Shown piece after piece: positions 21,385 to 60,338 of a stretch of DNA of 64,000 bases; the first letter of the stretch is position 1, and every line of letters begins with the position of its first letter. Made by a program: the position numbers and the translations under genes. The stretch spans positions 4,781,037-4,845,036 of the forward strand of contig LR746272.1 of NCBI GenBank assembly GCA_902729315.2, read 5' to 3'. A model generated the notes under the pieces. The model did not search any database, was not told the DNA's origin, and was given only the letters and a program-made list of their open reading frames with translations. This DNA is from Spirodela intermedia (taxonomy: Eukaryota > Streptophyta > Magnoliopsida > Alismatales > Araceae).

Positions 21385-23040
21385 TCACTGGGCTGCTTCC
21401 CAGGCGGCGTCGGCTTTGGCCCGGAAGAGCTCCCAGGCCGCCTTGACGTGCCGCTCCTCGGTCAGCGTAGTGCCCACCGCGAAGCGGATGACGTAGATCC
21501 CGCCGATGACCGTATGAGTGGCGTAGATCCCGCCGCTGTTGTTCACCTCCTCCAGCAGCCTTCGGTTCGCTGCGTCCGCCTCCGCCTCGCCGTCCGCACC
21601 GGCGCGGCGCGGCCGCATGCGGAAGCAGACGAGAGCGAACCGCCGCGGGACGACGACCTCGAACCGGGTGTCGGCGGCGACCATCTCCTCGAAGCCCCGG
21701 GCCATCCGGACGTCGCTCCGGATGTGCGACTGCAGGTTCGCGGTGCCGTAGCACCTCATCACCATGAACAGCTTCAGTGCTCTGAACCGCCGGCCGGTGC
21801 CGATCTGTTGGCAGAAGAAAAGAGGTCAGACTTTAGATGTGAGCTACGTTGGAAGGGGAGATACGGAGATTTGAATCGGGAATCGATGGGAATTCCCGCA
21901 GAACACGGAGTTTTTCGCTGTTGGAGAGCGGTGAGGGAAGGAAGAGGGCCGTACCTGCCAGTCCTTGTAGTCGACGACGAGCCCGGACTCGGTGGCGCGG
22001 TTCTTGAGGTACTCGGGATCCGTGGAGAGCGAGGTGGTGAGCCGGGCGCGGTCCCGCACCCAGAGGCAGCAGCAGTCGAGCCCCGTGAGCAGCCACTTGT
22101 GGGGGCTCATGCTGATGGAGTCGACCCGGTCGACCCCGTCCAGATGGTGGCGGAACTCGGGGCAGACGCAGGCGCTGCCCGCGTACGCCGCGTCGACGTG
22201 CACCCAGGCGCCGAAGCGGCCGGCCACCTCGGCCAGCTGCGCCACCGGGTCGACGGCGGTGGAGGAGGTGGTGCCGACCGTGGCGCACACGTAGGCGGGG
22301 AGCAGGCCGGCCGCCGCGTCAGCCTCCATGGCGGCCCGCAGCGAGTCGGGTCGAAGCGAGAACAAGTCTTCCCGGGCCGTGGGAATGATCCGGATGTTGG
22401 CGGGTGCGATGCCGGCGATCTTGCAGGCCTTGGCGAAGGTGGAGTGGGTCTGGTCGGAGGCGTAGACCACGAGCTTGTCGGCGCCGTCGTGGCCGGCGCG
22501 CTCCAGCACCATCTTCCGGGCCGCCACCAGGGTGCACAGCACGGCCTCGCTGGTGGTGGCCTGGAGCACCCCGCCGCCGCCGGCGGAGAAGAGGAAGCCC
22601 TTGGGGAGTCGGATCAGCTGGGCCAGCCAGTCCAACGTGAGGCTCTCCAGCTCGGTGACGGCGGGCGAGGAGAGCCAGTTGAAGGCCACGGGGTTGAGGG
22701 CGGAGGCCAGCAGGTCGCCGCACAGGGCGGCGGACGACAGCGTGGCGGGGAAGTAGGCGAAGAAGTTGGGGTTGGTCCAGTGGGTCATGCCGGGGAGGAC
22801 GGTGGCCTGGACCTCGCTCAGCACTTTGGCGAACGGCATGGGCTGGGCGGAGGGGGTCTCGGGGAGGAGACGGCGGAGATAGCCGGGCTCCACCTGGGGG
22901 ACGACGGGGTGGCTCTCGATGCCCTTGTAGTACTCGCAGATGAATTCGACGGTCTGATGGGCCTGCTGCCGGAAATCGTCGATATCCAGAGGGCTGAACC
23001 CTCTGGGAGACGCGATGCAGTTAGCGTCGAGGCTTCCCAT
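21385..23040 (-). CDS. TDC: TDC-A: plant aromatic amino acid decarboxylase, predicted tryptophan decarboxylase
   Basis: Two exons on the minus strand, 21,955-23,040 (362 codons) and 21,385-21,804 (139 codons plus stop); the 150-bp intron 21,805-21,954 has GT-AG ends in phase 0. The 501-aa length is normal for the plant family. The protein decarboxylates an aromatic amino acid using PLP in the cytosol; no transit peptide is evident. Visible motifs are NWLSSPAVTELE (121-132), SDQTHS with the PLP-stacking His199, HVDAAYAG with Asp283, and SPHKW with the Schiff-base Lys315. Tyr344 in the mobile catalytic loop marks a decarboxylase. Gly366 (QIGTGRRF) lies 22 residues after it, as in Catharanthus TDC, where Gly selects indolic and Ser phenolic substrates. 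All core residues are intact. The start was chosen because MGSLD is the usual N-terminus of the family and the ATG follows a GC-rich leader and a TATA element. Specificity is inferred. Confidence 0.95.
21805..21954 (-). other. TDC-A intron (150 bp)
   Basis: Donor CAG/GTACGG after codon 362 (Gln) and acceptor GCCAACAG/ATC. Read-through hits a stop after 36 intron codons, so retention would give a 398-aa protein lacking exon 2 and Gly366. Confidence 0.93.
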
Positions 23041-24592
23041 CTCTACTCCTCACGGGAGGGAGAGCCTCTGGACAACTGTCTGGGAAATGGTGTGGGAGAG
23101 ACAGGGAGGTATAGAGCGACCAGGGATGGAACGCTGGGGTTGTGACTTCAGCGCTGGACGAAGGCTGCCTTAAATAGGGAGAATCGTGTAGAAGACTCAG
23201 TATCGACGAAACAGCAAGGTTTGACTCGGAGCACAGGAGGTGCCGGACTCCTTCTTGGTGGTGAGCAGCCGCCAAGACTCGTCTGCATGGTAGGATGGTA
23301 GGTATCGACGGCTTATTTTTTTCCTTATCAATAGACCTATTTGCGCCAGGCAGCTTCCTATGGCGGCGTCGCATGAAGACCGGGTGGTTGGTGACCGGAA
23401 GCGTCGGCTTCACCTGGTCCTTTGGCGTGCTGATTGGCCTCGTTGAACGGGTAGCCGGAAGGCGGGCGGAGGTTTTCCGTTGGAAAATATCGCTTTTCGG
23501 ATGCATCATTGCCACTGCTTTTTGTTGTTAGTTCTTAAGAGGACTGAGAAGAATCAAGTTAAAGAGTGATGGATGATTTCTTAATTGATGATTTTCGAGT
23601 TTAGTACTTATAATTGTATGTTGAGAAAGTGAGACGCGGAAACACGAATGTCGTTCGCTAGAGAAGTATTTTCTCCACGGAAGAGTCACTGAGAGAAAAC
23701 CTTGTGTACGTAATTTTATGTCGACATCTCGGAATCATTTCTCAAAAATTGACTCGTTAAGCCCCGGTTTTATCGACTCCGTTCTCTTATATTGCGGTGC
23801 GCATCTACTGTCATGTCCCACGAATGCATTACAATTTTTCTAGAACCGACCCGCTGAGAAAACGGGTAGTTGAGATGAAGACCAGCCAAGCGCGAGAGAC
23901 AGAAGAGAGAGACAGAGAGAGTTGGAGACTACGCAAAAGGTCTTCAAGAACTTTTTCAACTCTTTTAAAATTTAACAAAAGAGATAAAAATAATTACAAT
24001 TGACAAAAAAATTAATTCTAATTTATACAAGTTAATTTGTCAATGCTGATAATTTTAAAATTAAATGACTTCAATATAATGTGAACCATTTCAGTCAATT
24101 CCTTTAAGGCTCAACTAAGCTGATAAAGATACATTTCTTTACGTGCATTTTTCTCATTGGGTTTATAAACATACTCTTTTTGCCTAGGTGCACTTGATAG
24201 CTCTCCACATGATAACTAGATTGTAATCATGTTATCATAGTATAATGATCATCCTATTAAAACGGAAATATTTATTAATTATATTGACCCATCATAGTGT
24301 GTAAATATCTTGGTTAAAATGTGCTTCTTGAACTTTGATGTTAACTCATTAGGTTGCAATTTCTTTTCAAATGACTGTTTACTTCAATTAGATAATTTAA
24401 GTGTTAATATACCATTTCTAATCTACTATTAGAAATCATGAAATCTACTTCACTCTTAAATACTTTTTTCCATTGCACAGATCTGAGTAAAATCATTTGA
24501 ACAAACTTCGGCAATAGATAAAAAAATATTGGGAGAGGGAGAGGAATATGCTAGTGATCATATGTGAGCAAATATGGAGACAAGAGGGGAGA

Positions 24593-24625
<33 letters not shown>

Positions 24626-24676
24626 CATAACAACGTCACTACTATATCTTATTCAAATGGATGTAGAGAAAAAGGG
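23041..24676. promoter_or_regulatory. TDC-A upstream region (leader, TATA, type-A promoter)
   Basis: On the minus strand CTATTTAAG (23,169-23,177) is a TATA-like box about 130 bp before the ATG, giving a leader of about 100 nt. A CCAAT motif lies near 23,432-23,436. The first 400 bp are shared by all four genes. From 23,448 rightward the sequence is shared only with D. 23,700-23,900 is also present, clearly diverged and inverted, at 45,855-46,060 upstream of TDC-C. A GA run (24,599-24,626) precedes the solo LTR. Confidence 0.6.
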
Positions 24677-24681
24677 AGGAT

Positions 24682-26314
24682 TGACGTGACTTAGTCATTG
24701 TATATTCATACGAATTTAAAATTTATAAAACTAAAAAATACGAATTTTCAGATATTTAGAAATATTTATAAATAAATATATCAATTATAATTTAATAAAA
24801 CTTTTAAAAATAGTGGTACTTTTTTGGTTCAATCACAGAGATGTAATATAATATCTGGTAATTATTTAGAATTTTTCTCAAAGAATACTATTTTCTATAA
24901 ATTTTATACTAGGAAATAAAAAGGAAATATATTTAAAATTCACAAAAAATAGAAATAAGGGTGCAGATGTCAGGATGATGTCAATGCCCAACGAATGTGA
25001 ATCGGATGAAAATAGAGTTCCACCTAGCGATTCTTATGTAAACGATTACATTTAATTAATCAAATTAAGATCTATAAAAGCCAAAAAAATCGTAATTGAA
25101 TGAAATATATCTTTGTCAATTTAAATCACATAAATTATCACTAAATGAAACAAAAAAGTAAGTTAAAAGTAGGAAAATAAAGTTCTGACATCACGGCAAC
25201 AATGCATTAACAATGCACTAGAATCTTGAGCATTCGAGAGGATTGTCGTGTAATGTCCATAGCCTTGAATGCTCTCCTTACACAAAGATGACGTGAACAA
25301 TCTCTAGATCTCCTTGCGAAGTCTAGAGATCAATGAAATGGGTCGTCGAATCATCTCCAGCTGTTGTCACACGACGGAGCGGAAAAATGGTGGTGTTGCA
25401 GCTCTTTGGCAGCTGTCACCCAACGAAGAGGAGCTGGATAGAGGTGAGGTGCGTGTCAAGGAGCTTCATCCTTAGGTCCGTGCAGCAAAAGGAGGCTCTT
25501 CATCACATTTGGTATGCTCTCAGGAGGTAGCGACTCATCTCCTAATTGATCATCCTCTTTCTGATGACAGCTTGTTCGTCGATCAATTAGAGATGCCTTA
25601 CTCAATAAATTCGTGATCTTTTTATCACGAATCATTTAGTAATTTTAGTAATAATGTTCTATGAATCCTATTGACAAAGATTTTCACTAATGATCTAGCG
25701 ATTCTGGTTGCATAATCCTTCACCGGTGATTTACAGGAAAGTCACGATAATCAAATAAAAAATATGAGTTTTGGCTTTAGGAGGATTCAAACCCACGCCG
25801 GTTGCCAACCCTTTCTGGGGAAGGTGTGATGCATGTTTAGCCCCACATTGATTGTGTGTTGAAGTTTATGGTGAATATATAGTAATATTACATTTTTGAT
25901 CAAGTCCCTTTCTCATGCGTGTACGATCACTCCTTGCCTCACAGCTAGCTGGCCACCGATGACGTGGAAGGGGAGTGGTGCACACGTACCCCTATCAGTC
26001 CTAGCCACTTGAGCCCCTACTCGTGGCTCCTCCCCGACTACACTTCCAACCCACTTGTAGGCCCGGCTAGCTGATGGGTCTCCCTTCATTTTGTTTTATT
26101 TTTATTTTTATTTCTTTTTCTTTATTTATCTCAAAAGTAAGATTGTAAAAATCATATAAATTCGTATAAAATCACATAGTTACCCAAAAAATTATATTAA
26201 TCAATTAAAAACTACTTTTCACACTTTAACATAAATATAAGTCTATTTATCATGAGTTAAAGCTAAAAATATATTATTTACTAATTATTAACTCATGATA
26301 ATGAAGACTTATCA
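24682..26314 (-). mobile_element. Solo LTR, gypsy family E, with target-site duplication
   Basis: Ends TGACGTGACTTAG...GACTTATCA and is flanked by a perfect 5-bp duplication AGGAT at 24,677-24,681 and 26,315-26,319, so this 1,633-bp piece is a clean solo LTR left by LTR-LTR recombination. Homologous to 2,940-4,685. Orientation is inferred from that copy, which keeps its PBS. Confidence 0.9.
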
Positions 26315-26319
26315 AGGAT

Positions 26320-26590
26320 AGAGAGAGGACATATATTAACTACTTGGTACTATGTGCACATGGATGCAAAGACCCAATGTAAAGATATACATATAGATAG
26401 AAAGATAAGGGATATTAGATGTTTTTGCATAGAAGAGATTGCCTCCAATCACAAAGGCAGTGTCCTACTAGAACTTCGAGACACTCAAGATGAATTTAGG
26501 TCACTAAATATGACTTTTCTTCTAATATCGGGTTCTTAAAAGAGGTCTTCAAGCTACTTGCCACCATCCACTACAGTCTCTAGAATTAGT
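26320..26590. repeat. Spacer with a dispersed 160-bp repeat
   Basis: 26,430-26,590 resembles 15,700-15,860, with the shared run TTCTTCTAATATCGGGTTCT followed by TAAAAGAGGTCT. No coding signal is recognised. Confidence 0.5.
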
Positions 26591-29338
26591 AAGGTCATAT
26601 AATCAAGACAGGTTTTTACAAATAGTTGGCCATACCTTTTGGCTTATCCAATGCACTTAGTACATTTATGAGAGTGATGAATCAGGTTCTGAATCTTTTA
26701 TTAGTAAATTTGTTGTTATTTATTTTGATGATATTCTTATTTACAATACTACAAAAGAAGAACAAATTAAACATCTCATATCAATGTTTAAAGTGTTGCA
26801 ACATAATGAATTATGTATTAATTTGAAGAAATGTGACTTCATGACTACTAATGTATTATTCTCGGGATAGATTGTAAGTGAAGATGGCATCAAAGTAAAT
26901 GAAGAAAATATTAAAGCTATTAAAGATTGGCCAACACTTACTACAATTCATCATGTTTGATACTTTCATAGTTTGACATCATTTTATAAAAGATTTATCT
27001 AAAATTTAGCTCAATAATGGGTCTAGTTACTGAATGCATGAGAAAAAGTAATCTTAAATGAACTAATGAAACTAATAATAGTTTTACTATAACAAAAGAA
27101 AAATTATGTTCTGCTCTTATTTTAGCTCTACCAAATTTTGATAAACTATTTGAAGTAGAATGTGATGTAGTTAGCATCAAAGGTGTACTATGACAAGAAG
27201 GTTGGCCAAAACTATTTTTCAACAAAAAAATCTCTAACGCAAGAAAAAATAGACAACATTTGAACTAGAATTTTATGTTGTGGTCCATGCTTGACAAACA
27301 TAAGAACACTATTTGATTCAGCAAGAGTTTATTCTATATACTTCTCATGAGGCTCTTAAATTAAACAATAGTCAGACTTCTATTAATATAATATATGCTA
27401 AATTGTTCTCTTTCATTCAACATTCTACTTTTGTTATTAAAAACAAGTCATGAAAATTAAATTGAGTTGTAGACGCTCTTAATAGAAAAACAGCATGTTT
27501 GGTGAACCTGCATGTTGAGATCGCATGATTTGACTATCTAAAGAACTATACCTAGAAGATGGGGATTTTTCTCAACAATATATGACATGTATATTCGAAA
27601 TATCAACTAAAAGTTTTCACCTACATGATGGTTTATTATTTCGAGGAACACAACTATCTATTCCTCACAACGTTCTAAGAGAGAAACTAGTACATGAATT
27701 TAGGCTTAGTAGGACACCTTGATCAAGACAAGACCTTACAATCAATTAAAGAATAGTATTATTAATCCAAACTAAAGAAAGATGTAGAAAATTTTATTTG
27801 TAAATATTAGGTTTGTCAAATCTATGAGAGACAAAGTCAAAATACTGAATTATACACTCTATTATTGATTCCACAACATCCATGAGCTAATATTTTATGG
27901 ACTTTATATTAAGTCTATTGTCAACATAGAGAAGGGTTAAAATTTCCACATTGGGAAATGGGGCAAGTCCAAGTTCTATCACTTCTAGAGCCTATGCTCC
28001 GACAATTGAACCTAGGTCGGTCAAGCTGGAAATTGTGTCTAGTCAATGCTGAGGAGAAAGATTCATTTCAGTGTAAACATAATCAAGGAGAGGGACACTC
28101 TAAATCTCCATTGGAAAAGGATCCTAACGGACTACAAGCCCTAGCTTTTAAGTTGAAGAAAGAAGTTCCCCTGGAATAGAAAGATATTGCACTTCAAAAT
28201 CGTTACAAGAAGCATTGCAAGCACAACTTCCTTTCTGGGCAAACCAAACCCAAAAAGCAACTCCCCCCTGGCTAGCCTTGCAAGAGCGGGTGTGCAGGAG
28301 AATAGAACTTAGCACACTTAAATCAAACAAAGGTATAGCATTACCTAAAGTATATGACACTACTCCTAAAAGAGTTTCCATGACAGAACCAATAGTGAAC
28401 TTAATATAGTCAGCCCCTATACAATAAGCATATTTCAATAAGAATCTCATAACAATCAATGAAATAATTTCACAGTCAACAACTTGAGTTATTAACCTCA
28501 TAGTCAATAACTCCATTGTTGTGATCGTTAATAGATTTTCAAAAATAATGCATTTCATTACACGTAAAAAGACAAATGATACAAGTCAGGTAATAAATCA
28601 CTTCTTCAAAAAAATTGTTCATCTATATGAAATTTATGAGTTAATTATATTTGATAGAGATTCTAAGTTTATATCTCACTTCTGACAAACTATTTGGAAA
28701 ATATTTGATAATTTTTTTTAATTCAATAATACTAGTCATCTAGAAATTGATAGCCAAACTAAAGTTATAAATAGAACTCTTGGCAATTTGATTCATTGAA
28801 TTTTATGTGAAAAGCCAAAAGAATAGGATTATGATTTAGCTTAAGTAGAGTTTACTTATAATTTAATGGTTAATTATTTGACTAACTAATCTCTATTTTC
28901 AATAGTATATTATTTTCCTCTAATAATTTTATTAGGTCTATTACAAGTACCGAGGTCAGTTGGAACTAGTAAAATTATAAACAATATGATAGATCATATC
29001 AAAATACTTCATGAATGTGTGATACACAATTTCACAATAAATTATAAGAAATATAAGACATCAGTAGATAAAAAAAGAAGGAAAACAATATTTGAAGTTA
29101 GAGACAAAGCTATGGTGTACCTTCATAAAGAACGATTCCTAACAAGTAACTATAATGAGTTGAAGCCAAAGAAATATAAACCATATCAAGTTCTATAGAA
29201 AATCAATGACAAAATATACCTTATTGAGCTCCCACTTAATATAACTATTTCACCCACATTCAATATTAGTGACATATATGAGTATTATGATGATTCAAAT
29301 GAAGACTTGAGGATGAGTTATCTTGAAGAAGGAGAGAC
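26591..29338 (+). mobile_element. Ty3/gypsy pol remnant (RT, RNase H, integrase)
   Basis: In several frames: RT with AIPFGLSNALSTFMRVMNQVL (26,626 on), the catalytic FDD box at 26,724-26,732 (YFDDILIYNTTKEEQIKHL), then NLKKCDF and IKAIKDWP. RNase H remnants follow up to about 27,480. The zinc-binding integrase part (LHDGLLFRGTQLSIPH) is near 27,610. The integrase core and C-terminus run from about 28,502 to 29,300 (NRFSKIMHFITRKKT, NRTLGNLI, AMVYLHKERF, YNELKPKKYKPYQVL). Many stops. The integrase is split by about 575 bp of unrelated DNA. The left end including protease and gag is missing. The copy at the right window edge is its duplicate. Confidence 0.88.
27928..28501. repeat. Foreign insertion inside the gypsy integrase remnant
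   Basis: Integrase homology breaks at about 27,927 and resumes at about 28,502 (VNNSIVVIVNRFSK). The inserted DNA has a 73-codon frame (27,958-28,179, plus) and a 136-codon frame (28,148-28,558, minus) that I do not recognise. No terminal repeats or target duplication were found, so its nature is open. Confidence 0.5.
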
Positions 29339-30000
29339 TGATGTAGTCAAAGACATAAGTTGAGCTCTCAACATCTAATTTAGGTCCAATTATCTTTAAT
29401 TTAGGCCATAAAGTGAAGAGTGCTGAGAAGGGGGCCCACATATGTGACTAGTGGATTGTAGGTTCAAAAAATAATATTTTATTTCTTACTTTATATTCTT
29501 TCACTTCTAGAAGTCACTTTATGTCCCTTTTCTTCTAGAAGAGATTTTAGTATGATTAGTTTGTACCTAATATCTATTTAAGATCTTTAACTGTCAAAGT
29601 ACGTACCCAAGATTTGTTTAGCATCTCTATTTGTGAGAGTTTATTTAAGGTCATTTCAGAGTTTGTAAGAGTATTTCCAAAAGATCTATCTAAGATCTCA
29701 ATCTGTTAGAGTTTATTTGGGTCATTTTAAAGCTAGTCACACTCTATTTAGGATCTTTCTTTTGGAAGCACCCCACCTTCTTTCTAAGCCTATATAAAGG
29801 TCATCATTGTAACTTGAGGTCCTCACTTTTTAGTTGAATCAGTTTTCTCCAATATAAAAATCTTTTTCTTTTGTTTGTGAATTCAGACACCTCTTTGTGG
29901 ATTCAAAAGGTTGAAGACTCCGAATTTATGGATTTAGAGGTTGGTTTCTTCCCTAAGATTGAGGCTTTATAGATTCAAGCCCTATATGTTATTTATCTTC
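29339..30000 (+). mobile_element. Probable 3' LTR of the gypsy remnant
   Basis: A purine-rich tract (29,324-29,338, GAAGAAGGAGAGAC) is followed by TGATGTAGTC, a typical gypsy LTR start. A TATATAAAGG box lies at 29,791-29,800 and a TGTGAATTCAGACACCTCTT stretch downstream resembles the usual end of such LTRs. No partner LTR is present, so the right end is approximate. Confidence 0.6.
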
Positions 30001-30019
30001 TGCATTACTGCTGTGTCAC

Positions 30020-30262
30020 AATCATTGGTCAAACGAGTGATGTTGATGCCGTTGTTGTTGTTCAGTTCCTCTAGCGGCCTCCAATTCGTTGCGTTCGCCT
30101 CCACCTCACCGTCCAAACCAACGCAACGTGGCCGCATGCAGAAACAGACGAGAGGGAATCGCAGGACCATCACCTTGAGGTCCCAGGCCATAAAGACATT
30201 GCTCAGGCAGTGTGACTACTGGTTCGCTGAACAGGTGTATCACAATCAAAAAGTATTGTAGA
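30020..30262 (-). pseudogene. TDC exon-2 relic
   Basis: On the minus strand this aligns with TDC exon 2 from about residue YGTANLQ to THTVIGG. Recognisable pieces are FPLVCFCMRPRCVGLDGEVE (TDC: FALVCFRMRPRRAGADGEAE) and PLEELNNNNGI (TDC: LLEEVNNSGGI). About 30 bp covering GFEEMVAADT are missing and stops interrupt the frame. There is no exon 1 nearby. Divergence is far greater than among the four intact copies, so it records an older TDC locus. Confidence 0.85.
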
Positions 30263-31506
30263 TTTTGATATTGTCTGAACAATCTCAACATTGAAAACAC
30301 TTTTTACGGCTATGACTCAATATGGCAGTCCAACTAATGGTCCTATCAAATCTCCCATTTTTCTCTTTAACCTATTAAAGAAGTTTCATTGAAGATCCCC
30401 AGATATATAGGGGAACATCTTTAAGTAAAATTATGTTAAAGCATGCGATGGGGATGCGACTAAAGATCCTAGTTGGATTTATGGATCACCCCAAAATCAG
30501 ACATGGAAATATTACCACATATACCCCGAAGGTTCTTTAAGATCGTGACTCGGCCTATAAAGCCATTCAAACCTAAATCTTCTTAAGCTCTCTACTTCTT
30601 GAATGACTACGCTTTCTTGCGGTGGGACTCCGCCAACGCCACTCGCTTTAGTGAACGTTCTGTCAAGGCGGAGGTACAACACGACAGCTTAGATGGATCT
30701 TTTCGCTGTGAAGACTGAACGGTTCTCTTCAGGCTTATCCACAAAAATCTGGCCAGGTCATCGCGTGGAACCGTCGTGTAGACTTAGGATAATTTACAAT
30801 GAATGAGGTTGGTGGAGTCTCCTGGCAAGAAAGCACACGCACAGTCGTTCAAGAAATCGAGAGATTTCGAAGGTTCGGGTTTGAATAGGCTGAGTCAGGG
30901 TGTTCAAGAATATTCGTTATATATGTTGCAATATTTCCGTCTAATTATGACTTGATCCAAAAATCGAACTAGGATTTGTAGCCATATCTTGTTAGAAAGT
31001 GATGCAAACCTCATTCTTATTTTAAGTTAAGCTCAATAGTCTTATGTAATTTTTCGTGTGCATATATAACGGAATGTAGTGCATAAATCGGCGTACTACA
31101 CCCTCCCCCTCCATTACACCGGCATTTGAACTGGTAAACGGCGGAATAACCAAGTACCTCGTCAACAACCCACTATTTGCATCGATCCCAAGTCCCAACA
31201 GAAAGTAAATGCTGGGTGACGAAATTGACGCATTAGATTATAACGAAAATAATGTACATCTTGTTGACAGTGTCGCCACATTTTATATACCGATAGAGCG
31301 CGTGCATAACCCCCCACTGGTCTTTAGTTCTATCCTACGGCGTATTTCTTTCAAATGTTATCTGCTATCAAGAAACAGAAAGGAAAGCAAAAACTCTAAA
31401 GCCACAAGGAAAGAAAGAGTGTGGCAAGGCGTGATGTGCTTTTACCGACAAGGAAACTGTTTGAGAAGTTTTCTTTTATTTCGATGAATAAAACTCAAAG
31501 ACCAGA
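30263..31506. promoter_or_regulatory. Upstream region specific to TDC-B, no gene
   Basis: Not found upstream of A, C or D except a short diverged match of 31,265-31,310 to 46,345-46,395 (shared CATTTTATRTACC). 30,330-30,450 matches 8,760-8,880. It joins the common TDC block at 31,507. An open frame at 31,209-31,487 is not recognisable. It may contribute distal promoter elements to TDC-B, which is inference. Confidence 0.45.
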
Positions 31507-31769
31507 AGGCCAATCGGCACGCCAGAGGACCAGGTGAAGCCGACGCTTCCGGTCACCAACCACCCGGTCTTCATGCGACGCCGCCATAGGAAGCTGCCTG
31601 GCGCAAATAGGTCTATTGATAAGGAAAAAAATAAGCCGTCGATACCTACCATCCTACCATGCAGACGAGTCTTGGCGGCTGCTCACCACCAAGAAGGAGT
31701 CCGGCACCTCCTGTGCTCCGAGTCAAACCTTGCTGTTTCGTCGATACTGAGTCTTCTACACGATTCTCC

Positions 31770-31778
31770 CTATTTAAG
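31770..31778 (+). promoter_or_regulatory. TATA-like box of TDC-B
   Basis: CTATTTAAG lies 129 bp upstream of the ATG, in a pyrimidine-rich context typical of plant core promoters; the same element precedes A, C and D (46,774-46,782 and 60,467-60,475 for C and D). Confidence 0.6.
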
Positions 31779-31906
31779 GCAGCCTTCGTCCAGCGCTGAA
31801 GTCACAACCCCAGCGTTCCATCCCTGGTCGCTCTATACCTCCCTGTCTCTCCCACACCATTTCCCAGACAGTTGTCCAGAGGCTCTCCCTCCCGTGAGGA
31901 GTAGAG

Positions 31907-33867: not shown

Positions 33868-33899
<32 letters not shown>

Positions 33900-35951: not shown

Positions 35952-35954
35952 AAT

Positions 35955-48871: not shown

Positions 48872-48903
<32 letters not shown>

Positions 48904-51288
48904 CGGGAAAAACGGACTTGCAGGTGATTCTTACTTGTGCACCCAAATCAGAAAACTGATTCCTCTGAAAGGGGAGGATCACGAGAAAAGCCATTTCCTG
49001 AACGGAAACGCTACAATGGTGTGTTAACAAAATGGACGATTTGCACTTTACAAATGCTCTTCGGATCAGTCGGCGTAATCGGGTGACCTCGATGCAAATG
49101 GGGTGGCTTGAGTCAGGGTAATTCCCGTAGAAAGTTTGAAGCTTCGGTGCTGGAGAATCGTTGTTCTGGATCATTTCTTTCAGCATGTTCTTCGTGCAGT
49201 TGTCCCATCTGGAGGACAAGTCTATTTAACGTCGTTGAGGAGGCCTGGAAGTGGGGGCTCGCCTGCGTGTTGGGCGGACGATGAGCGCCAACTTCGTCGT
49301 TGAGAGAGAGAGAGATAACGAGTTGCAACTTTGTTGAAAGGGAGGGCACAGGTAAGCGTGGGTGTGTAGATATTTATGCATGTATTGGACGAGAAAAACG
49401 GATATTTTAGTTCCGATCTCGTGCGCGGGAACGGAGACCAGAGAAGCCGAGTTTTGGAAGTCGTTTTGTACTCAAATTGTTGTTTCCCAGTCAAAGAAGC
49501 GCGAGCCATTGTCATAAGGAAACATTTACCCACCTGCCGCGGCTGCGAGACCTCGTGGCGGCGGCGTTACTGTCGTCTCGGTTCTGAAGGTTCTCATGAA
49601 GCCACACGCGTAATAATGAAGACGGCAGCCATTGACTGGGCACGCGGAGACAGGAAGGCGACATCAACGAAGGATCAGTTTTCTCTATTGATAAACCTTA
49701 GGGCTCCCATATTATTCGAGCGCTGCTGAAGTCATCAGATATTTTTCACCCAAATGCTAAACCAGACAATCCAAAAAGGCTTAGGAAAGTAGAGGGGGAG
49801 GGCGTGGGGGGGGAAACGCGAGGGGCGTATGGAGGTAGGGTGAGCGTTGTACAGAATGATCGGCGGTGGGTAGATTTATCATGCTATGCTACCTTTCATT
49901 TGCCTTGCTAACATATCATGGTTCAGATGGAGGTTTTCATTTGCCTGGTCTATATCATTTGCTGACGTGGGTTTCAGAGTTTGCCCAGTAGATGGTCGGC
50001 ATATTAAGAAAAATTGATTGATCTATACGAGAAACTCACGGAAGCTTTCTCGTAATTTTAAAAATATCCTATAACAAGTGTCAGAAAACAGTTTTTTTCC
50101 AGTCTTAATGTACCTTTCGATTGTACACGAAAAATAATTTATCAATTTTCTTAGCAAATGTTTGTCGTTTCATAGACACTTGAGTTTGTACCAATTCTGA
50201 TATAATCAGCTCGACTTTTTCGCCGGTATACACCCTTTCGGTAGCATACACCAGACGAATCACTCTGACGGTTTGTGCGAACTGATGCCTAGGGTCAACT
50301 GGGAGAGGAGAACGAGAGCGAGCGAGAGAGAGAGAGAGAGAGAGAGAGAACGGTGCTGGCCTTTTCTATGCAGATGTGGAGACCGGGGTAAGAGGGGTAG
50401 AGGAAGAGAGAGAGAGAGAGGGAGAGATTGCTCGATATGTATACCGAAAGAAGTACAGGCAGAGGCATCCTGCGAGTGGTGGATGATATTTTTGTTATTA
50501 TTATTTTTCCTTATGGACCGGAGCGCGACTTCGTAAGCCGCGGTATTGAGGGAACCAAATCGTCGACCGTAATTCCGGAAAAGGCGACAAACATTCCTGC
50601 AACCCTGAGGAAACCACGGAAGAGTTCTGTCTAACCACCATGCACTCTCCAGTTCTTTCACCGTTCAAGTAAAACGAGTTACAAATGAAGTTAATTACAT
50701 CGGAATCACGTCGTCCTTCATTCTTTTATCAGCCTACCAAAGCTAACCTTACCTACACTTCTCGGCCCTCTGGCCTGACTCTCCGCTGTCAATGTTGGAT
50801 TGGATCTTGGGACAAGCCGTAAGGGCCGGGTTTTCAGTGAGTCTGGATTTGGAAATCATGTCCAGGTATCAAATCAGATCGGAACCAATGATTTTCTGTA
50901 GTGGCTTGTACTTTGAAGGTCAAGAGTAGAAGCCAGCAATTCCATTCTACAGCGCATATCGGCACATGGCACATCGTTTTTCCTTCCTAACCATTTTCCT
51001 TCCCACCACTCCGTCCCTTAATGTGGCTTCCTATCTACGCACCAACTCCGCGTTCGCAGTTTTCAACCGTCGATAGCTACTTTGACCTAGAAAAGAGCGA
51101 TGCTGGGTTTTTTAAAAAATATTACTTTTACTATAAGGAAGTGCTCATGTCAAAAGTTAATATCCAAGTTGAAGGTAAGTGGTCTATTTCTGACTTGTCT
51201 AGTGATCTGATCTACCTTAACTAGCTGTAGGTGGTTGAGGATTATTGAAGACTAAAATAAGTAGTTCACCTTATTGGAAATGAAGGAT
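48567..51288. repeat. TDC-C 3' flank
   Basis: Inverted copy of 18,663-21,384, pairing also with 55,975-58,682 of block D as the stem of the C/D palindrome. No gene recognised. Confidence 0.7.
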
Positions 51289-51292
51289 CTAG

Positions 51293-51688
51293 TGTTGAGA
51301 TAATGGAGAATGATAAAATTAAATGAGAATGGATTAGAAATCATACATCAATCTATTGAACCTCAAGAATGAGGTTGGCCTTTTGGACTAACACAAAGGA
51401 ATTATCTAATTACTTCCTCAAAGAAAGATGAGATGCTCCAAGGACCCTGACCCCTTATTTATAGACAAGAGGTGCTTTATGTTTTGATATACTTTTTCAA
51501 TTTACCCATCATAAAATTAGAATAAGATCTGATCTCTACATATATTTAGATGTATGTTTATACTTATGAAAGATGCCGTCATATCAAGTACTTAAACCTC
51601 TATGAATCACTTAAATGAGATTAATTCAATGATAACCTTATAATATATAATTCATGTGTAATTATCCAAATTGAGATTAATTTCAACA
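51293..51688 (-). mobile_element. Copy of the 396-bp probable solo LTR
   Basis: Reverse complement of 18,263-18,658, duplicated with block C. Confidence 0.6.
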
Positions 51689-52054
51689 CACCCATCTCGA
51701 ATATAGCAGTTCTGTCATTTACAAAGGAAGTGGAGATGAGGAGGGGTTGACAATTCGACCAATCTTCACATAAGATGAGCTAAGGGACTTCACCAGCCAA
51801 CAATAAACATCGGAGATACGGAACGAGAGAGAGTTACAGAAGTGCAGAACCCTGCATGACAATAACTGTAGAGGAAGGATACTTCGCACGAAGGGAACAA
51901 GAAGCTTGTTACCCCCTTGCCCTAGTAAGGATAGCTCATCCCAAACTCCCCCCATGAGCTTAAGAAAGTACAAGACACATTCTTTCCATCCCTGGAGAAC
52001 TATGGAATCTAAATTAAATCGTACACTTTCACGAATTGCATGCACGAAGACGGA

Positions 52055-52296
52055 CAGTGTGTGTGCATGTGTGCGTGTCTGTCTGTGTGTGTGTGTGCGT
52101 GCGTGTGCGTGTGTGTGTCTCTGTGTGTGTGTGTGCGTGTGTGTGTGTGTGTGCGTGTGTGTGTGTGTGCGTGTGTGCGTGTGTGTGTGTGTGCGTGTGT
52201 GTGTGCGTGTGTGCGCGTGTGTGTGTATGTATGTGTATGCGCGCGTGTGTGAGTGTATGCGTATGTGTGTGTGTGTGTGCGCGTGTGTGTGTGTGT
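52055..52296. repeat. GT/CG alternating microsatellite, copy of 17,655-17,896
   Basis: Same length and interruptions as the reference tract in reverse, which is unusual for a hypervariable microsatellite and indicates a very young copy. Confidence 0.93.
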
Positions 52297-55200
52297 TGAG
52301 TGGGAGAGTGTTATAGGTAATTTCTACTTTGTGCACCCAAACGAGAAAAGTGATTCATCTCGAAAGGCTCTTAGCATGATACCTCCAAACCATTATCGAC
52401 AGTGTCCCGATTTGTTTGCGCAATCAGGCACACCAGCAATGAGAGCCTCATCAGGAAAACCATTTTCTGTAGGCAAAAGTCCGCTGGTGAGGTTATCTTA
52501 GCAGAACGGCGAGTTGGAATTTCACAAATACATCAGCGACTCAGTCGGTGAAGTCGGGTGAGCGAGGAGTGGGGGTAGTTGCCGTACAAAGTTGAAAGGT
52601 TCGGTGTGGGGGAATCGCAGTGTTGGATTATCTCTCTCACCATCTTCTTTCTCTTCTTGTGCTAGCTGGCGGCGATGTTTATCGAACATGACAGGCCACG
52701 CCTGACGGTGAGGACACGTCTGGGTCTTAAGGGGACGGCGAACGTCAGGTTCGCCGTTCTCTAGGGCCGAGTTTGTTCTCGGTGAAATGCATACATCTAG
52801 TCCAATGATTCCCAGCATAAGAATAAAATATTGTGTTCACATACGTTTGATCAAATGGTTTACCGTTGAGAACTACTACAAAGTCACGCACGAGGGTTAG
52901 TATTTCAGCAAAAACTGTATTTGAAGTCATCTATGCCAAAACGGCGCGCTATCGTTGCGCATTATTCACCATTAAGACCGCATATTTCAAGTGATAAGAC
53001 CGTAGAGATGACATAATTTAGTAAATAAGTCGTACGACTCTTCAAACATGCATTCAAGATTGTTAATCAGTCAGGGCACGTGCAGTATTTATTACAGGCC
53101 GACCCTAGTATCATTGATTGGGTTACAACATCCAGATCGTAAGTATAATAAGGGCATTTGAAGAGGTCTCGGAAGGATGCTTCGTTTTTCTTTTCCCTTT
53201 GACCCTTTGTCCCCATCATCCCATCCTACTCTCTTCGATCTCTTGCCAGCTGTCCCCATTTTCCCCTGACCGTGATCCCGCTCCACAACCCTCGCGAGTC
53301 CTTTCCGCCACGGAGCTGTGTAGACCCCAGCCTCGTCACATAGCCGCCGTCATTTTGGTCGGCAAGTTCACAGAAAAAAAATAACTCTCAAGTCTCTGTT
53401 TATAGGACGCGTCGTTCCCGCCGCCAGGGCGGAAGATCCCCGGCGGCGCGAACACATGGGGGCGTATCAGTTTTAAACTATGGGCGTTGCTTCCTTCCGA
53501 CTTCCTCGCGATCTCGGAAAGTAACCGGTCGCGGAAAGGTCTTGAATTTTTAGAGAGAGACAAAGCTACTCCGGGAATAGGTTGACCAGAACCCGTGCGT
53601 GCCCGAGAAATAGGATACATGCGCGCCAGGTTGCGAAAGAGAGAGACTAGAAAGAAAGTGTGTGCCACACAAAAACACAGCAGAACATGGTCTGAATACA
53701 GACATAAGACAGAAACAGAGAGAGAGAGAGAGAGAGAGATAGAGAGCGACAGAGAGCGGTGGGAATACCTGTAAAATTGAATCAATTATGAACATAATGA
53801 CGATGTAAACCATATGCTTACACGCCTTCACATTCGTTCAGTCTAAAAAAAATGTGTCTATGTTCGCCCACATCGCACGGTAGTAGGACAGCGCAAATCT
53901 CTCTTCAGCCAGTGTCGACATGCATTTCTCGACGGCCCCAATTCGGGTCTTCTTACGCCGAACGATTCAGAGAAAATTATTCATAAACGGTCCTCGGTAG
54001 GTTCACAAGCCGACACACACTGTCCCATCCAGTAATGTCCACACTCCCACGCGCGAACGACGACCTTGTCATATAATCCAGTACACCGACTCTGATCACT
54101 TTAGTCCACGGCGGCCAGTAGATTGGGGAGACCTCTTTTAAGAACCCGATATTAGAAGAACAGTCGCCTTTAATGGACTAAAATGCGTCTCGAGTGTCGA
54201 AAGTTCTGATATGAGACTGCCCTTGTGATTCGAGGCAATCCCTTCTCTTTGAGAATATCCGATCTCTCGCTATCTCGGTTTGGTGTCGTTGAGTGGTGGA
54301 GCCATTTACTTCATCCTATGTGGAAATGGGTCTAAGTGGCGACAAACCCCCCTTCTCGCCTTTGTGAAGGGCCGCACTACCCCGACAGTTGCTCTAATTC
54401 ACCCACTCCGTTTACGGTTTTGATTCTTCAATAATCCTCCGCCACCAGACATTAAATAACGTAGATCAACACTTCAGGACAAGGCTTGAATATACTTGTA
54501 ATCTTCCACGTGTACATAAGCTTTTCACAATGGCACTTGCCAACAGTAACAATAAAATTAAAAGAAAAAATCCAGCATATCGCTGGTCAAAGCGGTTATG
54601 GATGGTTGATAAACGGGTGCACGTAGTTGGCGAGTGGATAGACAGGGGAGTGCAGGGACGGAAATGGTGTGAAGGAACCGGGTTAGAAGGGGGCTGTGAG
54701 GTGCCATGAGGCTGTATGTCTTGGTGAATAGAATTGCTTGCCTCTGGACCAGACCTCCAAAGCACGAGCAACTACGGAAAATCATATGTTCCGATCTTTC
54801 TTGATACATGCGCCTGATACGTTGAAAATACTTTCGACTTGTCGCACGATCTAATTAAACATTGACAACCGCGAGTCAGGTCAGAGGGCCGAACAGTGTA
54901 GGTGAGATTTGCTTGGGAAGGCTGATAAAAGAAAGATTGATGACGTGATGTAGACGTTGTAAACTTCGTTTGTAACTAATTGTAGTTGAAAAGTGAAAGA
55001 ATTGGAGACTCGGTGGTAGCTTAGACAGATGTCTTCCATGGTGCCGTCAAGAATGTTTGTACCCTTTTCCGGAATTACGGTCAACGATTTGATTCTCTCG
55101 ACACTGCGGGGCTCGAAGTCGCGGTCCGGTTTCATTCACAAGGAAAATAAACAATGATAGTAGAATCTACCATTTGCAAGATGCCTCTGCCTGTACTTCT

Positions 55201-55782
55201 CTCTATTTATCCAACAACCCAACTCTCTCTCTCTCTCTCTCCGTCTCTCCCCCTCCCTCCCTCTGCCAGCAGATATTTGCACCTCTCTGAAGAAACGAAA
55301 TTTGATGACATCATCGCTGGAAGAATCGGACATGGGATCCCTCAAGCTTACGGATAGCGTAAAATAATCCTTGTTAACCTCCCATTCTGGAGGCCGGATG
55401 CCCAGTGAACGGCTACCGTCTTCATTATTAGGCGTGGTCCATCAGGGGAACCTTCACGTTAGAGTCTGTCACATATTCTTTCTATAAATTATGGAACGTC
55501 CGATTCCTTTTCTAAACGGTCTGTGAATATAAAAGCAAATAACCTGCGCAACCGGACGAAAGTACTGCCCCCACGAGGTCTTCCACCCGCGGCTGGTGGG
55601 TGATCGCTTGCTTATCACAATGGCTCGCACTTCCTCAAATGTGAAAAACTATTTGAGTAGAAAACGACTTCCCAACAGTCTTCGTCTCTGGTCTCCGTTC
55701 CCACGCACAAGGTCGGAAGCACGAAGTCCGCCTTTCTCTTTCATTACATATATTTGATCTATATACACCCGCGCCTACCTGT
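52297..55782. repeat. Copy of the diverged TDC-flank mosaic
   Basis: Inverted duplicate of 14,169-17,654. It forms most of the spacer between the C and D palindrome arms. No gene recognised. Confidence 0.65.
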
Positions 55783-55974
55783 TGTAGAATCTGAATCACT
55801 CAGATTCAAGGCAAGAAATACGAGAAGGATGAGCAAAACTTTGAGAAAGAATCTTATTGAGGAGAAATGATTCAAAGAGTCCAGATAAATGATATTGAGA
55901 CACACCCGTCTCTTATAAGCATACATCAAACTGCTGTAACGACAGCTACAGTGATAACAACCTAAAAGGCCATT

Positions 55975-58345
55975 AATAAGGTGAACTACTTATTTTAGTC
56001 TTCAATAATCCTCAACCACCTACAGCTAGTTAAGGTAGATCAGTTCACTAGACAAGTCAGAAATAGACCACTTACCTTCAACTTGGATATTAACTTTTGA
56101 CATGAGCACTTCCTTATAGTAAAAGTAATATTTTAAAAAAAACCCAGCATCGCTCTTTTCTAGGTCAAAGTATCTATCGACGGTTGAAAAATGCGAACGC
56201 GGAGTTGGTGCGTGGATAGAAAGTCACATTAAGGGACGGCGTGGTGGGAAGGAAAATGGTTAGGAAGGAAAAACGATGTGCCATGTGCCGATATGCGCTG
56301 TAGAATGGAATTGCTGGCTTCTACTCTTGACCTTCAAAGTACAAGCCACTACAGAAAATCATTGGTTCCGATCTGATTTGATACCTGGACATGATTTCCA
56401 AACCCAGACTCACTGAAAACCCGGCCCTTACGGCTTGTCCCAAGATCCAATCCAACATTGACAGCGGAGAGTCAGGCCAGAGGGCCGAGAAGTGTAGGTA
56501 AGGTTAGCTTTGGTAGGCTGATAAAAGAATGAAGGACGACGTGATTCCGATGTAATTAACTTCATTTGTAACTCGTTTTACTTGAACGGTGAAAGAACTG
56601 GAGAGTGCATGGTGGTTAGACAGAACTCTTCCGTGGTTTCCTCAGGGTTGCAGGAATGTTTGTCGCCTTTTCCGGAATTACGGTCGACGATTTGGTTCCC
56701 TCAATACCGCGGCTTACGAAGTCGCGCTCCGGTCCATAAGGAAAAATAATAATAACAAAAATATCATCCACCACTCGCAGGATGCCTCTGCCTGTACTTC
56801 TTTCGGTATACATATCGAGCAATCTCTCCCTCTCTCTCTCTCTCTTCCTCTACCCCTCTTACCCCGGTCTCCACATCTGCATAGAAAAGGCCAGCACCGT
56901 TCTCTCTCTCTCTCTCTCTCTCTCTCGCTCGCTCTCGTTCTCCTCTCCCAGTTGACCCTAGGCATCAGTTCGCACAAACCGTCAGAGTGATTCGTCTGGT
57001 GTATGCTACCGAAAGGGTGTATACCGGCGAAAAAGTCGAGCTGATTATATCAGAATTGGTACAAACTCAAGTGTCTATGAAACGACAAACATTTGCTAAG
57101 AAAATTGATAAATTATTTTTCGTGTACAATCGAAAGGTACATTAAGACTGGAAAAAAACTGTTTTCTGACACTTGTTATAGGATATTTTTAAAATTACGA
57201 GAAAGCTTCCGTGAGTTTCTCGTATAGATCAATCAATTTTTCTTAATATGCCGACCATCTACTGGGCAAACTCTGAAACCCACGTCAGCAAATGATATAG
57301 ACCAGGCAAATGAAAACCTCCATCTGAACCATGATATGTTAGCAAGGCAAATGAAAGGTAGCATAGCATGATAAATCTACCCACCGCCGATCATTCTGTA
57401 CAACGCTCACCCTACCTCCAGACGCCCCTCGCGTTTCCCCCCCACGCCCTCCCCCTCTACTTTCCTAAGCCTTTTTGGATTGTCTGGTTTAGCATTTGCG
57501 TGAAAAATATCTGATGACTTCAGCAGCGCTCGAATAATATGGGAGCCCTAAGGTTTATCAAAAGACAAAACTGATCCTTCGTTGATGTCGCCTTCCTGTC
57601 TCCGCGTGCCCAGTCAATGGCTGCCGTCTTCATTATTACGCGTGTGGCTTCATGAGAACCTTCAGAACCGAGACGACAGTAACGCCGCCGCCACGAGGTC
57701 TCGCAGCCGCGGCAGGTGGGTAAATGTTTCCTTATGACAATGGCTCGCGCTTCTTTGACTGGGAAACAACAATTTGAGTACAAAACGACTTCCAAAACTC
57801 GGCTTCTCTGGTCTCCGTTCCCGCGCACGAGATCGGAACTAAAATATCCGTTTTTCTCGTCCAATACATGCATAAATATCTACACACCCACGCTTACCTG
57901 TGCCCTCCCTTTCAACAAAGTTGCAACTCGTTATCTCTCTCTCTCTCAACGACGAAGTTGGCGCTCATCGTCCGCCCAACACGCAGGCGAGCCCCCACTT
58001 CCAGGCCTCCTCAACGACGTTAAATAGACTTGTCCTCCAGATGGGACAACTGCACGAAGAACATGCTGAAAGAAATGATCCAGAACAACGATTCTCCAGC
58101 ACCGAAGCTTCAAACTTTCTACGGGAATTACCCTGACTCAAGCCACCCCATTTGCATCGAGGTCACCCGATTACGCCGACTGATCCGAAGAGCATTTGTA
58201 AAGTGCAAATCGTCCATTTTGTTAACACACCATTGTAGCGTTTCCGTTCAGGAAATGGCTTTTCTCGTGATCCTCCCCTTTCAGAGGAATCAGTTTTCTG
58301 ATTTGGGTGCACAAGTAAGAATCACCTGCAAGTCCGTTTTTCCCG

Positions 58346-58377
<32 letters not shown>

Positions 58378-58682
58378 ACACACACACACACACATTATCC
58401 GGTACTTGCAAGGGGAAAAACAGTATTGAATTGAAAATTATCCGGTAATTATGGACAAAACCATATGCTCATACGCCTTTACACCCGTTGAATCTAAAAA
58501 AATGTGTGTACGTCTGCCCACATCGCACAGTAGTACGACAGCGGAAATCTCTCCTCAGGCAGCGTCCACATGGATTTTTATCGATCCTTGAGGTCGACTC
58601 ATTGCAAGCCTTTGGCGACGGTCCCATCCAGGGTTTTGCAAGGTCGAACCGTGGATAAAAACTCGGCCGTAACAACGCGGGA
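55975..58682. repeat. TDC-D 3' flank
   Basis: Direct copy of 18,676-21,384, with TC/CA microsatellites at about 56,900-56,926 and 58,347-58,394. No gene recognised. Confidence 0.7.
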
Positions 58683-60338
58683 TCACTGGGCTGCTTCCCA
58701 GGCGGCGTCGGCTTTGGCCCGGAAGAGCTCCCAGGCCGCCTTGACGTGCCGCTCCTCGGTCAGCGTAGTGCCCACCGCGAAGCGGATGACGTAGATCCCG
58801 CCGATGACCGTATGAGTGGCGTAGATCCCGCCGCTGTTGTTCACCTCCTCCAGCAGCCTTCGGTTCGCTGCGTCCGCCTCCGCCTCGCCGTCCGCACCGG
58901 CGCGGCGCGGCCGCATGCGGAAGCAGACGAGAGCGAACCGCCGCGGGACGACGACCTCGAACCGGGTGTCGGCGGCGACCATCTCCTCGAAGCCCCGGGC
59001 CATCCGGACGTCGCTCCGGATGTGCGACTGCAGGTTCGCGGTGCCGTAGCACCTCATCACCATGAACAGCTTCAGTGCTCTGAACCGCCGGCCGGTGCCG
59101 ATCTGTTGGCAGAAGAAAAGAGGTCAGACTTTAGATGTGAGCTGCGTTGGAAGGGGAGATACGGAGATTTGAATCGGGAATCGATGGGAATTCCCGCAGA
59201 ACACGGAGTTTTTCGCTGTTGGAGAGCGGTGAGGGAAGGAAGAGGGCCGTACCTGCCAGTCCTTGTAGTCGACGACGAGCCCGGACTCGGTGGCGCGGTT
59301 CTTGAGGTACTCGGGATCCGTGGAGAGCGAGGTGGTGAGCCGGGCGCGGTCCCGCACCCAGAGGCAGCAGCAGTCGAGCCCCGTGAGCAGCCACTTGTGG
59401 GGGCTCATGCTGATGGAGTCGACCCGGTCGACCCCGTCCAGATGGTGGCGGAACTCGGGGCAGACGCAGGCGCTGCCCGCGTACGCCGCGTCGACGTGCA
59501 CCCAGGCGCCGAAGCGGCCGGCCACCTCGGCCAGCTGCGCCACCGGGTCGACGGCGGTGGAGGAGGTGGTGCCGACCGTGGCGCACACGTAGGCGGGGAG
59601 CAGGCCGGCCGCCGCGTCAGCCTCCATGGCGGCCCGCAGCGAGTCGGGTCGAAGCGAGAACAAGTCTTCCCGGGCCGTGGGAATGATCCGGATGTTGGCG
59701 GGTGCGATGCCGGCGATCTTGCAGGCCTTGGCGAAGGTGGAGTGGGTCTGGTCGGAGGCGTAGACCACGAGCTTGTCGGCGCCGTCGTGGCCGGCGCGCT
59801 CCAGCACCATCTTCCGGGCCGCCACCAGGGTGCACAGCACGGCCTCGCTGGTGGTGGCCTGGAGCACCCCGCCGCCGCCGGCGGAGAAGAGGAAGCCCTT
59901 GGGGAGTCGGATCAGCTGGGCCAGCCAGTCCAACGTGAGGCTCTCCAGCTCGGTGACGGCGGGCGAGGAGAGCCAGTTGAAGGCCACGGGGTTGAGGGCG
60001 GAGGCCAGCAGGTCGCCGCACAGGGCGGCGGACGACAGCGTGGCGGGGAAGTAGGCGAAGAAGTTGGGGTTGGTCCAGTGGGTCATGCCGGGGAGGACGG
60101 TGGCCTGGACCTCGCTCAGCACTTTGGCGAACGGCATGGGCTGGGCGGAGGGGGTCTCGGGGAGGAGACGGCGGAGATAGCCGGGCTCCACCTGGGGGAC
60201 GACGGGGTGGCTCTCGATGCCCTTGTAGTACTCGCAGATGAATTCGACGGTCTGATGGGCCTGCTGCCGGAAATCGTCGATATCCAGAGGGCTGAACCCT
60301 CTGGGAGACGCGATGCAGTTAGCGTCGAGGCTTCCCAT
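58683..60338 (-). CDS. TDC: TDC-D: predicted tryptophan decarboxylase
   Basis: Exons 59,253-60,338 and 58,683-59,102 on the minus strand encode the same 501-aa protein. The intron (59,103-59,252) differs from the other three by one base (GAGCTGCGTT here, GAGCTACGTT in A, plus-strand reading), a useful marker for this copy. Upstream sequence equals that of TDC-A through the solo LTR and into the gypsy remnant, so A and D should share regulation if both are real. Confidence 0.94.
59103..59252 (-). other. TDC-D intron (150 bp) with one copy-specific base
   Basis: GT-AG, phase 0. The base change removes the intron stop used in the other copies, so a retained intron would read six codons further (404 aa) before stopping. 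Confidence 0.92.

Follow-up and report, generated by a model that had tools for sequence, protein, structure and literature searches.

Inverted tryptophan decarboxylase gene arrays on two chromosomes of Spirodela intermedia, probably kept alike by gene conversion

The window, that is, the whole 64,000-nucleotide stretch of Spirodela intermedia DNA analyzed here, contains no N and carries four two-exon genes of the tryptophan decarboxylase (TDC) type, arranged minus, plus, plus, minus (Table 1). In the 1,840 nt that begin with the ATG, copies A, B, and C are the same and copy D differs by a single intron base, in line with the earlier note; the intron of copy B is 150 bp long and bounded by GT..AG. 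The four edges named in that note (31507, 35951, 46504, and 55974) coincide, give or take a few bases, with the boundaries of a repeated unit of 4.45-4.77 kb. Six megablast pairs of at least 4.4 kb within the window showed 99.64-99.96% identity, and the likeness of the copies is therefore far beyond chance. The array on the window's contig (hereafter C9) comprises six TDC copies, two of which lie outside the window, and all six have the same coding sequence. Another contig (C2) carries a second array of five copies and, apart from it, a single diverged copy (C2b, 94% identical). The open reading frame is intact in 12 of 12 copies from C9, C2, and C2b. In the following, K denotes a gene-bearing unit, and P, S, T, and X denote blocks between K units.

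Table 1. Coordinates of the TDC genes, gene-bearing units, and intervening blocks in the window (C9)
Feature	Position	Strand	Details
TDC copy A (K1)	21385..23040	-	exon 1 21955-23040, intron 21805-21954, exon 2 21385-21804
TDC copy B (K2)	31907..33562	+	exon 1 31907-32992, intron 32993-33142, exon 2 33143-33562; 501 aa
TDC copy C (K3)	46911..48566	+
TDC copy D (K4)	58683..60338	-	single intron-base difference from A-C
K unit of copy A	18676..23447	-	gene, 2.7 kb of 3' flank and ~0.4 kb of 5' flank
K unit of copy B	31500..35951	+	3' end cut at 35951, start of block X
K unit of copy C	46504..51275	+
K unit of copy D	55975..60745	-
P block, spacer of tail-to-tail copies	13750..18675	+	~14169-15532, old inverted copy of the K 3' flank (70-77%, local matches)
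P' block, copies C to D	51276..55974	-
S block, 8-kb spacer of head-to-head copies A and B	23448..31499	+	homologous to both C2 spacers
S2 start, from copy D toward the fifth copy	60746..64000	+	runs on past the window
T' block, upstream of copy C	40821..46503	-	holds an inverted pair of dispersed ~1.5-kb repeats
X block, C9-specific join of the copy B unit to T'	35952..40820	.	LTR-like repeat and C2-flank-like sequence

The naming of these genes as plant TDCs was borne out by the sequence, which supports the 501-aa product as a predicted plant tryptophan decarboxylase. The product contains a PF00282 domain and its best match was a plant TDC, a group II PLP decarboxylase; the best matches among solved structures were PDB 6eew and PDB 6khn (Tryptophan decarboxylase 1). 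We take 6eew to be the Catharanthus roseus TDC, with which the Tyr348 numbering fits. Gly370 at the substrate pocket bears on specificity, tyrosine decarboxylases having Ser there; the equivalent residue is Gly in the query, 6eew, and 6khn and Ser in 6eem and 6liu. The Tyr348 equivalent is also conserved in the alignment, within the motif PEYLKN, at a catalytic-loop position that is described as Tyr in TDC (Tyr348 in C. roseus) and Phe in aldehyde synthases. The predicted duckweed enzyme shares both residues with 6eew and 6khn; its genes have one 150-bp intron and are present as 12 intact copies. The predicted enzyme would decarboxylate tryptophan to tryptamine, a precursor of serotonin, feruloyl-tryptamine, and related defense amines. 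In the sister species S. polyrhiza, copper excess is reported to raise tryptamine by almost 3000% (PMC12050396), and a submerged mutant of Lemna aequinoctialis is reported to show increases of more than 100-fold in tryptamine, serotonin, and feruloyl-tryptamine (PMC9917893). A search of the whole window against Rfam at gathering thresholds gave no match, and a Pfam scan covering 10 of the window's 113 stop-to-stop pieces that are 95 aa or longer gave copia-type matches only, all in the left flank. A biosynthetic gene cluster was not supported, as visual inspection of the flank pieces of 110 aa or more revealed no recognizable second pathway gene. A literature search of partial coverage, without subscription journals, found no description of these arrays or of duckweed TDC genes.

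Most copies alternate in orientation, standing head-to-head across an 8-kb spacer (S) and tail-to-tail across a 4.7-kb spacer (P). The gene-bearing arms form inverted repeats of 19.9 kb (99.945%) on C9 and 13.6 kb (99.905%) on C2, and the P-K-S-K layout is common to both arrays at a few per cent divergence. The tail-to-tail junction of C9 is unlike that of C2, and part of the C9 layout is therefore a separate rearrangement; the same P flank is joined to K at the native copies. On C9, S and S2 show no difference in 8,052 bp, and T' is identical across 5,683 bp to T, which adjoins the sixth copy. The LTR-like repeat of block X is 77-84% identical to its other copies, and the same block has sequence 83% like the flank to the right of the C2 array. 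The junctions at the unit ends, inspected by eye only, displayed neither a terminal repeat nor a duplicated target of the kind that transposon-mobilized gene copies would carry. S holds an LTR and a further dispersed repeat, and T holds a repeat pair. We considered an old homology between S and T as upstream regions but dropped it, because its sole basis was a 215-bp stretch of 86% identity and a 38-bp stretch.

On C2, the minus-strand unit K4 and the plus-strand unit K5 are 99.7% identical over a 2.79-kb unit, including 99.6% across its last 730 bp beyond the stop codon. K4 then has a 2,049-bp insertion, after which collinear homology with K5 resumes at only 70-78% (three blast pieces); a gap-permissive local alignment of this outer flank gave 78.8% of 1,442 columns, with a score of 747, compared with 52-65 in five shuffles. 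At the other minus-strand copy on C2, this flank is 100% identical to that of K4, and the C2 copies are nearly identical in the intron and in 730 bp of 3' flank as well. Because 3' flanks of 70-79% identity adjoin a 99.7% unit, homogenization by gene conversion, as the earlier note had proposed, is supported on C2, where the minus and plus copies look as if they were old paralogs that conversion has overwritten. Arms older than their identity implies are found in one C2 pair, and the old-flank argument is made for C2.

Units K1 and K2 of C2 have the pattern of reciprocal recombinants of K3 and K4 at seven informative sites, three of them (C9-equivalent 4801709-4801739) in one direction and four (4802284-4804475) in the opposite direction. 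The sites used were those at which at least two C2 copies differ from the rest, 7 of 21 variable columns; the other 14 comprised five private to K1 or K2, three private to K5, one at a position for which K2 and K4 lack K sequence, and five at the end, in the last seven bases, where the extraction of K1 was short. As a point against recombination, K2 has four private bases and K1 has one within this stretch. The S spacer that separates K1 from K2 runs in the opposite orientation to the one that separates K3 from K4, and the two show one difference in 8,042. The K1-K2 pair resembles a reciprocal recombinant whose spacer has been flipped; an assembler switching arms within an identical stretch would give the same pattern.

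Between C9 and C2, the gene shows 4 differences at ~531 silent sites (0.75%), whereas 113 of 3,561 sites (3.2%) differ in the nearest flanks (Fisher P = 7e-4). The unit has 67 fixed differences between the contigs, none of which falls in seven consecutive 200-bp bins within the gene. Codon 501 (Q/R) tells the C9 copies from those on C2. At silent sites, the longest stretch free of differences spans 417 sites; a stretch as long arose in 14 of 5,000 permutations for the P-K-S comparison and in 0 of 5,000 for the P-K-T comparison, in which fast-diverging repeat sequence inflates the contrast. Compared with C2b, divergence is alike at synonymous sites (0.106), in the intron (0.127), and in the 5' sequence (0.093), and the silent sites are therefore under no unusual constraint. 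The C9/C2 divergence of the LTR in S is 16% and that of the repeat pair in T is 9%, against only 1.7% for the other dispersed repeat in S. Transitions and transversions stand at 234:29 (LTR in S) and 218:44 (T repeat pair), versus 0.9:1-2.4:1 in the other compared segments; the high divergence had at first suggested that the split was older or that sequence had been exchanged with other repeats, but in view of this transition excess our guess is methylation-type mutation of the repeats. Counting against this guess, a minority of the differences are at CpG (77 of 263 in the LTR, 59 of 262 in the repeat pair), and the dispersed repeat in S is so little diverged. At five sites spread across 1.2 kb, copy D is the only C9 copy to carry the C2 base; we do not claim these sites as a single tract because fixed C9/C2 differences lie between them.

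We consider it probable that, in the TDC arrays on two chromosomes of S. intermedia, inverted pairs recombine and conversion keeps the genes alike. With most genes in inverted pairs, around S or around P, the arms and the sister arrays would recombine with each other, and non-crossover events would copy a gene-centered tract between copies. Such conversion would hold the coding sequences at 99.6-100% identity though at least some pairs are old, while rare crossovers between inverted arms would flip a spacer and unequal or template-switched events would alter the copy number. We infer that conversion and crossover, in mitotic as well as meiotic cells, are the cause; the copies would be expressed, and their dosage may matter and perhaps be selected. 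The homogenization could be exaggerated by the Illumina-based correction of MaSuRCA.

It is unlikely that the identity simply reflects youth, with one TDC unit copied by inverted and tandem duplication through template switching or breakage-fusion. The identity of S with S2 and of T with T', and the C9-specific join of K to P without long homology, speak for such copying, and recent amplification, an idea already raised in the earlier note, is the simplest account of some C9 blocks. However, it leaves unexplained the diverged C2 flanks beside the 99.7% unit, as well as the lower silent divergence of the gene than of its flanks between the chromosomes. In addition, C2 and C9 have the P-K-S-K layout in common but differ in it by a few per cent, and the layout therefore predates the ~99.9% identity within the arrays. 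Purifying selection on protein and codons, in place of conversion, is a very improbable explanation: dN/dS of ~0.22 versus C2b indicates constraint, but C2b synonymous sites have diverged like the C2b intron and 5' flank, and near-identity among the C2 copies extends to the intron and the 730 bp of 3' flank.

A further concern, also voiced in that note, is an assembly artefact in which a single contig was built up from haplotype copies or fold-back joins and the true C9 copy number is lower; we regard this as improbable. The 20-kb C9 palindrome arm stops precisely where a 10-N gap lies (C9:4869762-4869771), 24.7 kb past the window end, and the C9 copy number is therefore less certain than that of C2; because T ends at this gap, its outer flank is not comparable. 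The MaSuRCA output shrank from 191.9 Mb to 136.6 Mb after filtering of duplicated sequence from heterozygous regions. The family's best protein-database cluster has three contigs, the longest of 9.6 Mb, so that no 12-13 Mb chromosome is among them, the scope of these contig counts being uncertain. On the other hand, the same P-K-S-K architecture, diverged by a few per cent, is present in the C2 array, which contains no N; a pure artefact is therefore unlikely for the whole cluster, though the outer C9 palindrome arm may be affected. Moreover, T' continues into the sequence resembling the right flank of the C2 array, and the nanopore reads used, of at least 10 kb, exceed the 4.8-kb unit.

Concerted evolution driven by palindromes is already known, and the duckweed case is an apparently autosomal, metabolic, two-chromosome variant of it. 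The W-chromosome palindromes of Salix purpurea are likewise plant palindromes and are described as having highly conserved 20-kb stretches and signs of gene conversion (PMC7023750). They belong to a sex chromosome, whereas the duckweed arrays are multi-copy, concern a metabolic enzyme gene, and lie on two apparently autosomal chromosomes. The arms of human Y palindrome P6 are reported to be kept more than 99.9% alike by conversion with a mean tract of ~2 kb, and its rare inversions from crossover resolution resemble the flipped S spacer (PMC3723533). P6 is, however, one palindrome on a haploid chromosome, in contrast to several inverted pairs on two chromosomes in duckweed, where homogenization is gene-centered and diverged flanks are left. 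In the Caenorhabditis tandem pair bas-1/C05D2.3, conversion between AADC duplicates was likewise suggested, although it is given there as a suggestion and the proteins are only 59% identical (PMC514703).

Such loci are easily miscounted in assemblies. A self-homogenizing multi-copy TDC locus would tie inducible tryptamine chemistry to a genome mechanism, and would make it possible to ask whether palindromes serve to keep genes intact in mainly clonal plants, as they do on sex chromosomes. We tentatively raise the possibility that, in this mostly clonal plant, the inverted arrays on two autosomes form a mutual repair set with ongoing mitotic conversion within and between chromosomes. If so, the set would do for one gene what sexual recombination would, keeping a dozen copies of a defense-amine enzyme intact and nearly identical while also letting dosage change quickly.

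The earlier note described four tryptophan decarboxylase (TDC) genes in the window, and our analysis bears this out: all have two exons and encode the same 501-aa protein, their strand order (A to D) is minus, plus, plus and minus, and, counting 1,840 nt from the ATG, A, B and C share one sequence, from which D departs at a single intron base. In the genome around the window (136.5 Mb, 32 contigs; the window is G000:C9:4781037-4845036), a 1,016-base TDC probe gave 20 matches in total: six on contig C9 and five on a second chromosome contig, C2, at 99-100%, a single copy at 94% on C2 at 8.23 Mb (C2b), and eight weaker ones (67-81%). The PF00282 profile, counted exon by exon, gave at least 47 matches genome-wide. 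All 12 close copies retain an intact 501-codon frame and stop. Coding sequence does not vary among the six C9 copies, and Q501R is the only protein difference between each C2 array copy and C9; the C2b protein has 22 amino-acid differences (dS 0.106, dN 0.023). The best protein-database match, P0001 of Spirodela intermedia, is given as 100% identical, with R as the last residue vs Q in the window protein. P0001 and P0003 are probably from another S. intermedia assembly, and P0001 lends indirect external support to the existence of a TDC gene ending in the C2-type residue. P0003 appears to be a model, with a disrupted reading frame, of a nearly identical TDC copy elsewhere; it would reflect either an extra location or an assembly difference.

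Coordinates of the TDC genes, related genes, repeats and the assembly gap
Feature	Location	Remarks
TDC genes A-D	window 21385-60338	
Broken copia-type retroelement pieces	window 9746-12998	gag, integrase and reverse transcriptase matches
Long CA-type simple repeat	window 17628-17939	P block; spurious HTHT reading frames
Dispersed 1.65-kb repeat	window 24679-26314	many other places on C9 and C2
Inverted pair of ~1.5-kb dispersed repeats	window 41117-43781	T'
TDC-like remnant	C9:4701470-4707704	two 81% pieces, ~5 kb between (reading frames copia-like by eye); some 80-100 kb from array
Other decarboxylase genes	C2:2818697, C15:2932729, C15:2945148	PF00282 1-374 in one open frame
10-N gap	C9:4869762-4869771	24.7 kb past window end

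The solved structures closest to the window protein are 6eew, which we take to be Catharanthus TDC because the residue numbering fits, and 6khn (Tryptophan decarboxylase 1), with tyrosine decarboxylases ranking behind. In the structure-match alignment, the window protein keeps the Tyr of the catalytic loop and the Gly of the substrate pocket; Gly370 has a role in substrate specificity. Substitution of Tyr348 with Phe is reported to turn the Catharanthus enzyme into an aldehyde synthase (PMC6411801). Among duckweeds, copper is described as raising tryptamine by almost 3000% in S. polyrhiza (PMC12050396), and exogenous tryptamine as raising TDC expression by 2.25 log2 in Lemna turionifera (PMC12279875).

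The C9 array reads P K1+ S K2- X T' K3- P' K4+ S K5- P K6+ T and the C2 array reads P K+ S K- Q P K+ S K- Q P K+ T. K denotes the TDC unit (K1-K4 of C9 are A-D; plus here is the minus strand of the window), S the head-to-head spacer, P and P' tail-to-tail spacers, T and T' the blocks upstream of K6 and K3, and X a C9-specific join. Common to both are P-K at the left edge, K-T at the right edge and the head-to-head K-S-K arrangement, and S is homologous end to end (94%, LTR included). At the tail-to-tail join, a full K meets P on C9, whereas the C2 unit is truncated 730 bp beyond the stop codon and separated from P by a 2,049-bp insertion. The dispersed 1.65-kb repeats are probably solo LTRs, because they have TG..CA ends and 5-bp target duplications (two copies, by eye). 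The repeats in T' are about 74-78% like some 30 other genome places (40 of 824 candidates scored), and their C9/C2 divergence is strongly transition-biased.

The arrays are probably best explained by gene conversion among the copies, perhaps with an occasional crossover flipping the spacer. On C2, K4 (minus) and K5 (plus) match at 99.7% across 2,786 bp, including 99.6% over 730 bp past the stop, and beyond the unit their flanks, though collinear, align in BLAST at only 70-78% identity (292 bp at 77.7%, 126 bp at 73.0% and 872 bp at 70.3%); gap-permissive local alignment of these flanks gave 78.8% over 1,442 columns, with a score of 747 vs 52-65 for five shuffles. A 259-bp relic of the 5' end of an additional minus-oriented TDC sits to the left of P on C2. 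Such near-identity beside diverged flanks, together with the relic, suggests that the tail-to-tail arrangement on C2 is old and that the gene has been overwritten. Between C9 and C2, most flank segments outside two fast repeats differ by 1.7-4.2%, and for the first kb of C9 P the difference is 6.6% against the internal C2 copy and 2.9% against the left-edge one. Fixed differences number 67 across the aligned unit and 0 in seven successive 200-bp gene bins; 4 of ~531 silent gene sites differ vs 113 of 3,561 flank sites (P = 7e-4), and the longest difference-free run was reached in 14 of 5,000 permutations for P-K-S and 0 of 5,000 for P-K-T. Codon constraint does not account for this dip, because C2b divergence is alike at synonymous sites, in the intron and in the 5' flank.

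As for the proposed crossover, C2 K1 carries K3 bases at three 3'-side sites and K4 bases at four 5'-side sites, K2 carries the opposite, and the S between them is flipped. Judged from these bases, one crossover within a 545-bp interval (4801739-4802284, C9-equivalent; 137-682 bp past the stop) would explain all seven sites. K5 has the 3' bases of K3; on its 5' side it agrees with K4 at the first and last sites and with K3 at the two between. An assembler arm switch in that identical stretch would give the same pattern, although reads of at least 10 kb are reported for the nanopore assembly of clone 8410 (PMC7645714), which our genome fits. Private bases also occur in the recombinant stretch on C2, four in K2 and one in K1.

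The published nanopore/Illumina assembly of this clone is given as 136.6 Mb, with Si09 (probably our C9) at 13.4 Mb, after a raw MaSuRCA assembly of 191.9 Mb was filtered for heterozygous-region duplicated sequence (PMC7645714). The 10-N gap on C9 starts exactly at the end of a 20-kb inverted palindrome arm; because of this gap and the duplicate filtering, K6 and the surrounding arm are the least secure parts, and the true C9 copy number could be fewer or more than six. The C2 stretch 9265001-9355000 contains no N bases.

The three other decarboxylase genes read through the intron position of the array TDCs, which points to an intron having been gained or lost within the family. The 5' flank common to all copies spans only ~400 bp and contains a TATTTAAG motif about 135-140 bp upstream of the start codon, and beyond this flank lies S or T; the copies may therefore differ in distal regulation although their proteins are the same.
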